A stretch of 64,000 bases of DNA, taken from IMG/VR virus record IMGVR_UViG_3300013126_000014, positions 1 to 64,000 of that record. The stretch is one strand, 5' to 3'. Below, piece after piece: positions 38,752 to 40,864 of the stretch. The position numbers and the translations under genes are program-made. Origin of the DNA: a virus. Under the pieces are notes generated by a model. That model did not search any database, was not told the DNA's origin, and was given only the letters and a program-made list of their open reading frames with translations. Every line of letters begins with the position of its first letter. The stretch's first letter is position 1.

Positions 38752-38780
38752 TTGACAATGTATATATAATGCTGTATATT
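38752..38780 (+). promoter_or_regulatory. Host sigma70-type promoter of tRNA island
   Basis: TTGACA (38752-38757), 17 nt, TATATT (38775-38780). The predicted start is at or just before the first tRNA base (38789), so little 5' trimming would be needed. Confidence 0.85.
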
Positions 38781-38788
38781 ATAATCAT

Positions 38789-38862
38789 GCGCTTATAGTT
38801 TAATGGCAAAACAAGAGGCTCTAACCCTCTACTTCTGAGTTCAATCCTCAGTAAGCGCACCA
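38789..38862 (+). tRNA. tRNA with anticodon CUA (amber suppressor)
   Basis: All arms pair perfectly. The acceptor is GCGCTTA/TAAGCGC (7 bp), the D stem GTTT/AAAC with GG in the loop, the anticodon stem AGAGG/CCTCT (5 bp), and the T stem CTGAG/CTCAG with loop TTCAATC. CCA is encoded at the 3' end and the discriminator is A. The 7-nt anticodon loop is CTCTAAC, with U33 present and anticodon CUA at 38821-38823, which reads UAG. The variable loop is short (4 nt), excluding Leu, Ser and bacterial Tyr types. The charging amino acid cannot be read from the sequence. A host-type promoter sits immediately upstream. Confidence 0.92.
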
Positions 38863-38865
38863 AGT

Positions 38866-38941
38866 GAGCGTGTAGCAGAGTGTCACATGCGTTAGGCCGC
38901 AAGCCTAAAGAGGAAGGGTTAAAATCCATCTGCGCTCTCCA
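38866..38941 (+). tRNA. Degenerate tRNA, apparent anticodon GCA (Cys)
   Basis: A 76-nt element with encoded CCA starts 4 nt after the first tRNA. The acceptor GAGCGTG/TGCGCTC pairs with two G-U at its base. The anticodon stem TTAGG/CCTAA is perfect, and the loop CCGCAAG gives GCA, but position 33 is C instead of the near-universal U. The T arm is poor (two mismatches, loop TTAAAAT) and the D loop lacks a clear GG. It may be a functional but divergent tRNA-Cys, a decaying tRNA or a tRNA-like structure. Confidence 0.5.
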
Positions 38942-38958
38942 CTTACAAAGAGATTAAC

Positions 38959-39762
38959 ATGGCGGCTACCTTAGGCAGAAAACAGTTATCCTATAAAGAC
39001 AGAAAAGAAATTTATAGGACTACTCCTAATGTAATAGGATCATATAATCACGGAGTTGAGTCCAAATACAAAGATTTAATCAATTCGTTATCTAGAGCAG
39101 AGTATATAGAATACGAAGCATTACTACATACCTACGGTACACAGGGCCGTAAGAGACAAGTTATGTTAGACGTTTTTATAAAAAAAGGCATCACCGGATC
39201 CTTACTTGCACTAGCAAAAATCAGAGTGGACGACTTATACCTACATCAAAAATTAGTAGCTATGTTAAGACATCGATGGACTAGTATAGCTAAGATTAGA
39301 AAAGATAAAACTAATGCCAATCCTGACCAATTATGGATGAATATAGCTCGTGCTATTCAATCTCGCTGTTTATCCCACGGGCACGAATTATGGCATGAAT
39401 GGGTAGGTGCAGACGGAAGAATTCAATTAGTTAACTATTTAAAAACACTATATGATACTCAAAACGGGCTATGTGCTATATCTCGCGAAGAATTAAAATT
39501 ACAGTCTGGAAACAAAAAAACTAATCCCAATAAATGTTCACCTGACAGAAAAAATAGCAATAAAGGATATGTTCCTGGCAATATCTGGTTAGTTACTTGG
39601 TGGGTAAATTCAATGAAAATGGATGTACCGTTAATTACGTTCTGGAAAAGAATCGATCAGTTAGCTAATGTTAGAGAACTAAACAAGCAAGGAAAAAGGT
39701 ATAAGACTTATACACTACCACTAAATACTATTTTAAAGGACAAACAAAATGTTATAGATTGA
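38959..39762 (+). CDS. HNH-like nuclease / unknown 267-residue protein
   Basis: A basic protein whose C-terminal part (about 165-225) has an HNH or endonuclease-VII-like pattern: GLCAISREEL with one Cys, then CSPDRKNSNKGYVPGNIWLV and TWWVNSMKMD. This fits the S-x-D-R-x-D/N...KGY...N pattern of phage HNH proteins, though a full metal-binding Cys set is missing. The N-terminal 160 residues are helical and basic. AAAGAG precedes the ATG, 17 nt after the second tRNA, so it is co-transcribed with the tRNAs. Its last 14 nt overlap the amber-containing gene. Confidence 0.65.
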   Translation: MAATLGRKQLSYKDRKEIYRTTPNVIGSYNHGVESKYKDLINSLSRAEYIEYEALLHTYGTQGRKRQVMLDVFIKKGITGSLLALAKIRVDDLYLHQKLVAMLRHRWTSIAKIRKDKTNANPDQLWMNIARAIQSRCLSHGHELWHEWVGADGRIQLVNYLKTLYDTQNGLCAISREELKLQSGNKKTNPNKCSPDRKNSNKGYVPGNIWLVTWWVNSMKMDVPLITFWKRIDQLANVRELNKQGKRYKTYTLPLNTILKDKQNVID

Positions 39763-40315
39763 ATATCGTTGTAAAGATGTAGTTTTTCATTTCAACAAAA
39801 AGCACTTAGAAGATTCCTCTGTACCTATGTGGGTACTCAAAAGCCATGGTGTTACATTTTACGTTAATCATGTAGACGCTAACATACCGTGGACAACAAA
39901 AGAAACTCCAGATAATCCAAGCACTAAAGGCAGTTTAAAGTTTAAAGACTGTAAGCTCGGTATTGACCGAGACAATAACGCTACACTTAGTAAGTTGGGC
40001 ATATTAGATAAACGTTTACCGCATCCGTTTATTGCTAATCGCGTCATTGCTAGTCGTAACAGTCAGTTCTACGTAGCACTTAAGACCGACGAATTCCAGC
40101 ACAGCGAAATCAAGTATGTTAGCGGCGGCTGTGGTAGCAGTTTCGTTATCTGTGATCTATTAGATAAGAATGAAGCCCTACTTGCGGCACTAAAGTACGC
40201 TGGACAGTTCAGGATGTTAACTCCAAATGAAAAGTATTACTTTGATTATGATACCGCTGAGATCATTTATGAGTATGATGACGAGGATCTAAACAATGAT
40301 GACGATTTGTATTAA
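39749..40315 (+). CDS. Unknown acidic protein with in-frame amber as codon 3
   Basis: From the ATG at 39749 the frame reads ATG TTA TAG ATT GAA TAT CGT TGT and is open to TAA at 40313-40315 (188 residues if UAG is decoded). AAAGGA ends 8 nt before this ATG, the best ribosome binding site in the vicinity. Codons 4-26 (IEYRCKDVVFHFNKKHLEDS) look like ordinary protein and run without a break into the ORF that could start at the ATG at 39827. That ATG has no binding site and would drop this segment. Translation therefore needs UAG suppression, an AUU start at codon 4, or reinitiation. The rest contains WTTKETPDNPSTKGSLKFKD and an acidic tail. The function is unknown. Confidence 0.75.
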
Positions 40316-40472
40316 GCATAACGAACTACGTGAGTTTCAGCATATAGTCAAGGAGCATAATATTAAGCATGGCCCGTTTCGTAAAGACTACAAGGGATAT
40401 ACTATAGACATATTAGAAGCGGGTCCGACTGAAACTTACTTTAGATTAAAATATGCTGAATTGACAAATTGA
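40296..40472 (+). CDS. Small unknown protein, 58 residues
   Basis: Reads MMTICIKHNELREFQHIVKE and ends LKYAELTN, TGA. Its start overlaps the end of the amber gene by 20 nt. GAGGA lies 8 nt before the first ATG (40296); a second ATG follows at once. It is compact, mixed-charge and of unknown function. The last codons contain the -35 element of the next promoter. Confidence 0.65.
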   Translation: MMTICIKHNELREFQHIVKEHNIKHGPFRKDYKGYTIDILEAGPTETYFRLKYAELTN

Positions 40473-40489
40473 TTATTTGATAGTATAAT
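40461..40489 (+). promoter_or_regulatory. Perfect sigma70 consensus promoter
   Basis: TTGACA (40461-40466), exactly 17 nt, TATAAT (40484-40489). Both hexamers match the bacterial housekeeping consensus in full. It drives the 104-residue gene from about 40496. Confidence 0.93.
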
Positions 40490-40518
40490 TGCGTTTCATT
40501 ATCTATAAGGAGTTAACT

Positions 40519-40833
40519 ATGACTTGGTATGTTGCAAAATACAAAAGTGTTAAACCTGCTTTTAGAGGTGGAGAAACTAACTACAATAAAATTAACGCTA
40601 CAAAGAAATATGTAGAATACTTTTTAGACATACAAGAAATGAATGCACTGCTTGTTGTTACTAAAAGTTTTGACGTTAAAATGGATTTACTTTATTGTTT
40701 AGATCGGGCAGAAAGTAAGAAACAATGGCACTTTAGACATCCTAACTTTGACAGAGATGATGCTAATACAATTTTGCAGTTAGTTAGAAACATTCCGTTT
40801 AAAAGTACTGTGGATTATACTGAAAAATACTAG
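40519..40833 (+). CDS. Small early protein, 104 residues, under consensus promoter
   Basis: Begins MTWYVAKYKSVKPAFRGGET and is basic, with Tyr-rich N-terminal and helical C-terminal parts. AAGGAG is 6 nt before the ATG. It is bracketed by a perfect host promoter and a perfect terminator, so it is a single-gene transcription unit expressed strongly and early. Such genes often encode host-takeover factors, but the protein has no motif that says so. The stop is TAG, and readthrough would add 16 codons across the terminator to a TAA. Confidence 0.8.
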   Translation: MTWYVAKYKSVKPAFRGGETNYNKINATKKYVEYFLDIQEMNALLVVTKSFDVKMDLLYCLDRAESKKQWHFRHPNFDRDDANTILQLVRNIPFKSTVDYTEKY

Positions 40834-40838
40834 CCTAC

Positions 40839-40864
40839 AAAAAAGCCCCGCAAGGGGCTTTTTT
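40839..40864. terminator. Bidirectional rho-independent terminator
   Basis: A-run plus GCCCC, loop, GGGGC plus T-run (perfect 11-bp extended stem). It ends both the plus-strand island and the minus-strand gene 23 transcript. Confidence 0.95.

Follow-up and report, generated by a model that had tools for sequence, protein, structure and literature searches.

We asked why a phage gene should carry an in-frame stop codon at its third position, and whether a transfer RNA (tRNA) of the same phage is there to read it. The gene lies in the stretch of DNA analysed here (the window), the first 64,000 bases of the 117,787-base virus record IMGVR_UViG_3300013126_000014. The virus is a T4-like phage, with a gene 23 that is 64-69% identical to that of the jumbo myophages Vibrio phage 2.275.O, PA5oct and GAP32. 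The gene in question (the amber gene; 39749-40315, plus strand, 188 codons) follows an AAAGGA Shine-Dalgarno sequence and begins with ATG TTA TAG ATT GAA, with the ATG at 39749 and the TAG at 39755-39757, and is then open until 40315. Upstream of it, on the same strand and downstream of the same single promoter-like site, stands a tRNA gene (38789-38862) called by ARAGORN and scoring 63.9 bits with the Rfam tRNA model, which has a tRNA fold, the amber-suppressor anticodon CUA and a CCA end. We are confident that this is an amber lock conserved among phages and paired with a key of its own: a gene that would be gated by a suppressor tRNA. The reading draws on the position of the lock, its conservation, the coding constraint behind the stop, the pairing with a tRNA, the match between stop and anticodon and the joint absence of both, all of them properties of the sequences compared.

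The early stop and the frame behind it

We collected the best 80 of 232 IMG/VR relatives of the amber gene (set 1), which together with the window, RHph_I1_18, Phosso and Atu_ph07 make 84 genes. An in-frame TAG stands at codon 2-10 behind an ATG in 81 of them (79 of the 80 loci, the window and RHph_I1_18), most often at codon 3 (60 of 81). The early stop is TAG in every one of these 81 genes, while the codons ahead of it vary; grouped at under 90% identity they form 54 clusters, and the lock is present in all 54. One carrier is an isolate, Rhizobium phage RHph_I1_18, in which the homologue is unannotated and tRNA-CUA follows directly after it. Three genes have no early TAG: that of locus L011 and those of Phosso and Atu_ph07, which are fused copies. 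A second, overlapping set, the best 80 of 382 relatives from a wider domain-profile scan, has the early TAG in 75 genes; 73 were found by script, and inspection by eye added L212 and L244. The five exceptions are L211, L242, L246, L265 and L285, with L242 and L265 on the contigs of L011 and L146; here the lock is carried by an upstream gene of the peptidyl-tRNA hydrolase 2 (Pth2) type or by a leader frame. The TAG at codon 3 is not a mutation. Among 20 pattern matches in bacterial and archaeal genomes there were no relatives of the amber gene.

The codons behind the stop appear to be translated and are under strong purifying selection. The ratio pN/pS is 0.13 for the first 7 codons past the TAG (47 sequences) and likewise 0.13 for the 16-codon block ahead of the next Met (53 sequences), both calculated over all pairs and not corrected for phylogeny. 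This bears on a different explanation of the locus, in which translation starts downstream of the TAG, at an internal Met or at AUU, and the ATG-x-TAG is a short upstream frame that regulates by re-initiation. Deposited annotations do place an internal start in CBB, GAP32, ME3, XacN1, RAS14, Phosso and Atu_ph07, and the codon after the TAG is ATT or ATC, both rare start codons, in 53 of the 54 clusters. On the other hand, re-initiation is at odds with purifying selection on the codons between the TAG and the internal Met, and other members have AAC, AAT, GTT, ACC or further codons after the TAG, most of which do not serve as starts. It also leaves unexplained the near-absence of other stops at this position and the pairing of TGA with tRNA-UCA described below. 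We consider re-initiation improbable; a start at AUU directly after the TAG was rejected, since the following codon varies among members.

None of the 54 cluster representatives terminates with TAG, compared with 36 of 414 other open reading frames (ORFs) of at least 150 amino acids in the same loci (chance 0.007). The early stop is followed by A in all 81 genes of set 1. The next base is A or G in 44 of 45 genes from set 2, counted on a manually chosen subset free of obvious duplicates, and in all 28 locked genes of the Pth2-like family introduced below. In bacteria, a purine after the stop is a context that favours suppression. As a control, we scanned the rest of the loci for starts with an early stop behind them and then at least 50 open codons, and found 25 cases with TAG, 20 with TGA and 15 with TAA; two locked Pth2-like genes, those of L011 and Phosso, are among the 25 with TAG.

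These counts also bear on the possibility that the whole genome uses an altered code in which TAG specifies an amino acid, as in the recoded crAss-like phages. A tRNA-CUA and an in-frame TAG in a conserved gene would be expected under such a code. However, TAG terminates 15 of the 98 ORFs of at least 100 amino acids in the window's record, among them two genes beside gene 23 (42097-43191 and 43201-43839), as well as 53 of 600 ORFs in the loci of the relatives, and early TAGs outside the locked genes are not in excess (only start-proximal stops were scanned). Genome-wide recoding (code 15) was rejected, being contradicted for the window's record by its ORF structure, and we give it hardly any credence.

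Suppressor tRNAs and a second locked family

Combining all methods, we found tRNA-CUA in the record of 74 of the 81 locked genes. In the fetched stretches ARAGORN called it for 62 of the 81 (60 upstream, 2 downstream), every time on the strand of the gene; a covariance model of 46 tRNA-CUA sequences added 10 and a search of whole records added 2 more (L038 and L069). Of the remaining seven, five have an upstream sequence shorter than 200 bases; the other two are 11-kb fragments. Five locked loci in which no tRNA-CUA was recognised in the first stretch (L038, L069, L146, L164 and L168) all hold one elsewhere in the record. Among the 60 genes of set 1 with an upstream tRNA called by ARAGORN, the tRNA ends within 600 nucleotides of the gene in 34.

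In the alignment of tRNA-CUA sequences, 98.1% of stem cells are paired and two-sided changes occur in 13 of 16 pairs, which is strong covariation. The acceptor end is near-invariant (GCG in 45 of 46 with CGC in 45 of 46, and A73 in 46 of 46), so that one and the same charging enzyme may serve most of these phages. The tRNA for glutamine has G73, which A73 does not fit.

A second family of locked genes, unrelated to the first, was found two places upstream of the unlocked amber-gene homologue of L011, which starts normally: here a Pth2-like gene begins with ATG TTG TAG ATT. A profile of such genes matched 35 loci, 28 of which have an early stop behind ATG (27 TAG, 1 TGA). The Pth2 gene of Phosso starts with ATG AAG TAT TAG, its annotated start being internal, and the cultured phages CBB, GAP32, ME3, XacN1 and RAS14 carry the lock in this family as well. 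The family has the Pth2 fold (AlphaFold pLDDT 88.8; Foldseek matches in the PDB with TM up to 0.76), and the 13 best of these are either entries for peptidyl-tRNA hydrolase 2 or structures from structural genomics that we take to be Pth2, although not all titles name it. The Phosso protein passes the Pfam PTH2 threshold (E 3e-20), whereas the L011, CBB and ME3 types stay below it; the NCBIfam cut-offs are not passed. By eye, CBB-type proteins are without the GK motif of Pth2.

PHROG 34073 (77 residues), when compared with L134, L138 and L011, covers only the Pth2-like part past the internal start; since the match is confined to that region, this family looks like a product of missed amber starts. 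The operons of Phosso and Atu_ph07 (L086 and L087, 4700-6260) contain Pth2, an unknown gene and a gene for a coiled-coil-like protein to which the domain known from the window's amber protein is fused, and in L011 and L211 the coiled-coil-like protein and this domain are encoded by separate genes.

Seven of the 35 Pth2-like loci have no early stop. One of them, L162, is a short contig. In three others (L165, L169 and L172), tRNA-CUA and the operon are separated by short, related leaders (3512-3565, 2226-2270 and 3563-3607, respectively), each with two in-frame TAGs (MDRV*GFT*IRPP* type). L150, L156 and L179, which are taken up below, complete the seven. In L011, L246 and L285, the leader frame, if read past its TAG, spans a terminator-like hairpin (-17.8, -18.2 and -21.4 kcal/mol, respectively).

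If phage tRNAs decode the early stops, stop and anticodon should change together. This is what we see in two cases, few as they are. The Pth2 gene of Atu_ph07 begins with ATG ATT GGC GAA CAC TTT TGA ATT; the genome has a tRNA-UCA, and there is no tRNA-CUA in the stretches covering its 31 Rfam tRNA matches. The paper on this phage, in the portions available, reports the UCA suppressor and names no specific target for it (PMC6102473). In L167, similarly, the gene begins with ATG GAA TCG TGA, a tRNA-UCA lies some 180 bases ahead of this start, and there is no CUA among the anticodons read (13 of its 23 Rfam matches, made into loci with their flanks). The notion that the early stop is simply the terminal stop of the upstream gene was rejected for many members, which have in-frame stops just before the ATG; in L167 the upstream frame does run into the TGA.

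Lock and key are also absent together. For RaK2, SCTP-2, LR756508 and the L156 record, the search for an early stop came up empty, and so did that with the tRNA-CUA model (for the L156 record, among its best matches). For XacN1 and RAS14 the model did match, though their Pth2-like gene had first seemed unlocked; re-inspection revealed the true start, ATG AAG TAG ACC, and with it the predicted lock, on a 286-codon fusion with the Pth2-like domain at its end.

Several observations weigh against a lock that is opened by a phage tRNA. In set 2, L239 terminates its locked gene with TAG. The Pth2-like gene of L150 is ambiguous, as its start may be GTG CGT TAG, and the 393-kb record L179 has two tRNA-UCA (6059 and 6674) together with a Pth2-like gene without early stop, and no target of these tRNAs was found. 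About 9% of ORFs use TAG as an ordinary stop, and suppression must therefore be partial, late or tolerated. Finally, the tRNA lies 3-4 kb downstream of the locked gene in CBB and GAP32 and much farther away in some records; a single shared transcript is thus not general. As to the surroundings of the ambiguous gene, L150 has a tRNA-CUA and then a GC-rich stretch ahead of it (3693-3975).

Proposed mechanism and the setting of the island

For charging, decoding in vivo, timing and purpose we infer the following course of events. A ribosome would start at an ordinary ATG with its Shine-Dalgarno sequence and reach the UAG at codon 3 (range 2-10), where, without the phage tRNA, the host release factor RF1 would terminate and no protein would be made. 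The phage tRNA-CUA, often encoded just upstream on the same strand, would be transcribed, processed and charged by a host synthetase; as it accumulates in charged form it would decode the UAG and the whole protein would appear. In the window, this circuit would be a coherent feed-forward loop of type I, because tRNA and gene share a strand and a promoter-like site; it would act as an AND gate with a delay, giving protein only after sustained phage transcription. We have here, probably, a natural coherent feed-forward switch. In other phages it is a Pth2-fold gene, a Pth2-like fusion or a short leader frame ahead of an operon that bears the lock.

The hairpins in the leaders of L011, L246 and L285 suggest an additional attenuation step, which is the least certain part of the scheme: where an early-amber leader overlaps an intrinsic terminator, the terminator would be opened when the phage tRNA lets ribosomes pass the TAG. 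Whether all this amounts to a wider natural principle is in our judgement finely balanced, leaning slightly to the negative. Such a principle would comprise a dedicated stop with a dedicated suppressor tRNA as a module across large phages, an amber-gated attenuator in some of them, and, as the locked genes, translation-quality factors that would be produced only once the phage's tRNA set is at work.

The purpose would probably be to control a protein that acts on tRNA or translation and is made only once the phage's own tRNAs are in place. The lock may serve timing, guard against leaky early expression, or provide feedback on suppression via a peptidyl-tRNA-hydrolase-like product. The last idea can be taken further, to a variant that is compatible with the lock. 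The locked protein would answer to the level of amber suppression, much as release factor 2 does by way of its in-frame UGA, and strong suppression would yield more of a protein that limits the damage from stalled or dropped peptidyl-tRNA. The Pth2 fold of the second locked family and the Pfam assignment of the Phosso protein are in favour of it. Moreover, ATG-x-TAG is the shape of minigenes that release peptidyl-tRNA, and the locked starts match it. However, the window's own family is not Pth2 by sequence, its N-terminal domain is without a named match, any catalytic activity is putative, and the GK is apparently missing from CBB-type proteins. We hold this variant to be rather unlikely.

As for the protein encoded by the window's amber gene, a comparison with Pth2 by hhalign gave a probability of 0.2, and no Pfam or NCBIfam family was matched; the idea that its C-terminal half is homologous to Pth2 thus found no support. 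No named relative of its N-terminal domain was found in the families searched. Its predicted fold (pLDDT 82) has no PDB match below 1e-3, the best VIA-align Z is 4.9, among common alpha/beta arrangements, and the matches in BFVD are uncharacterised or DUF2061-named phage proteins. PADLOC returned nothing convincing.

An earlier note on this DNA had described the region 38752-40864 as a self-contained early island, with two promoters, two tRNAs, an HNH-like gene, the amber gene, small genes and a terminator, and all these elements are indeed present, as a plus-strand unit flanked by structural genes on the minus strand. The tRNA/amber unit is preceded by a sigma-70-type promoter-like site (38752-38780, plus strand; TTGACA-17-TATATT, 11 of 12 positions, a pattern match only). 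The tRNA-CUA is followed by a second tRNA (38866-38938, plus strand; Rfam 32.4 bits), probably Cys(GCA) with an unusual C33; ARAGORN made no call for it, and anticodon and C33 were read by eye, while the tRNA in the corresponding position of L007 is tRNA-Cys(gca) according to ARAGORN. The rest of the record yielded no additional tRNA call. Between the tRNAs and the amber gene there is an endonuclease VII/HNH-type gene (38959-39762, plus strand; PHROG 3322 and 1035), and a small gene of 58 codons belongs to the operon of the amber gene (40296-40472, plus strand; homologues in 7 of the 80 loci). The last small gene (40519-40833, plus strand; 104 codons, homologues in 4 of the 80 loci) has a perfect sigma-70-type promoter-like site (40461-40489, plus strand; TTGACA-17-TATAAT, 12 of 12), which is intact in L002, and ends with a TAG just before an intrinsic terminator (40837-40866; fold -20.9 kcal/mol), also conserved in L002. 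The terminator separates the island from gene 23 (40890-42062, minus strand; Pfam Gp23 E 3e-100) and was judged to be two-sided by eye from its A and T runs. Since 21 promoter-like sites were found compared with 15.0 in shuffles, only the two best (38752 and 40461) are notable.

That suppressor and amber target are co-transcribed, as the earlier note had proposed, agrees with their being one plus-strand unit and with a pairing that is conserved in many phages. Its suggestion of a mobile or accessory cassette is not supported for the unit as a whole. Only two endonuclease genes look inserted, the HNH-type gene and a homing-endonuclease-type gene on the flank (38184-38675, minus strand; PHROG 314 E 8e-14). 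Neither has a match in the 80 loci of set 1. In L002, where both flanks are available, the order is structural gene, tRNA-CUA, amber gene, two small genes, terminator and gene 23, and both endonuclease genes are absent; in L007, tRNA-CUA, tRNA-Cys and amber gene are present but the HNH gene is missing. The endonuclease genes are therefore likely insertions. The note had also named a gene order common to all relatives as what would speak against a cassette. Such a common order is not found, yet L002 keeps that of the window. Of 46 non-redundant relatives whose sequence extends 1.5 kb or more downstream, 10 have gene 23 after the module and 36 do not, and the position of the module thus shifts over longer evolutionary distances.

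One could go further and regard the unit as a mobile early cassette in which the suppressor is a passenger and the amber gene has decayed. Endonuclease genes that flank or interrupt the unit and the rarity of gene 23 next to it fit this view. But L002 keeps the core order without endonucleases, and amber codon and tRNA are retained in dozens of diverged phages, a conservation that already contradicts decay; we find such a cassette very improbable. Because the endonucleases are unmatched and L002 retains the order, the second promoter and the terminator, the core of the module is probably inherited in the window's lineage, with a different genome position in more distant phages. "Accessory" is not the right word for the unit.

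Two further observations concern the borders of the island. The TAG end of the last small gene abuts the two-sided terminator (40831-40866) in both the window and L002, and read-through of this TAG by the phage tRNA would take ribosomes into the terminator, towards gene 23 in antisense. On the other side, an Rfam freshwater-2 RNA motif (38097-38163, minus strand; 52.1 bits, gathering threshold 49.9) lies in the leader of the 218-residue structural gene, and a similar stretch seems to precede the homologue of this gene in L002.

Significance and known systems

So far, the suppressor tRNAs of jumbo phages with a standard code have been without a known target. The authors of the XacN1 study searched beyond terminal amber stops and could not identify a suppressor target, and the papers on Atu_ph07 (PMC6102473) and RsoM2USA mention only potential ones. 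Our literature search, which covered few subscription papers, returned no report of an early-stop gene as the target of a suppressor, and switching of genes by an early stop and a phage tRNA appears to be undescribed before. We can now name a candidate target for XacN1, Atu_ph07, CBB, GAP32, ME3, RAS14, Phosso, RHph_I1_18 and many uncultured phages. The target was overlooked because the stop is at the start of the gene and the annotated start is shifted downstream; as a consequence, annotation trims N-terminal residues from the locked proteins. The function of these phage tRNAs becomes directly testable.

The leaders of L011, L246 and L285 resemble those of trp/his attenuation in that the leader frame covers an intrinsic-terminator-like hairpin. 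Here, however, the event sensed would be suppression of a stop and not a shortage of an amino acid, and the resemblance concerns three loci only and is putative. Another relative in principle is the gene of release factor 2 (prfB), which is autoregulated at an early in-frame UGA by +1 frameshifting and a host factor. In both cases an early in-frame stop would sense the conditions of decoding and control one gene; unlike the frameshift in prfB, the lock would be decoded in the zero frame by a dedicated tRNA.

In the recoding of crAss-like and other gut phages (PMC7886860, PMC10879173), a phage suppressor tRNA (CUA or UCA) likewise reads in-frame stops. There, the stop is reassigned in many, mostly late genes, whereas the phages described here keep the standard code and lock a single start-proximal stop. 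There is also a likeness to a synthetic circuit, the "leak dampener" of Ho et al. (NAR 2020, PMC7969014), a coherent feed-forward loop with a suppressor tRNA in E. coli. In it, one input drives a suppressor tRNA and a stop-bearing mRNA, both of which are needed for output, and it works with amber or opal, just as the phage locks are TAG or TGA. The leak dampener is man-made, with sense codons turned into stops, whereas the phage lock is natural and consists of one stop just past the start; our results point to a natural form of a circuit that had previously been described as engineered.

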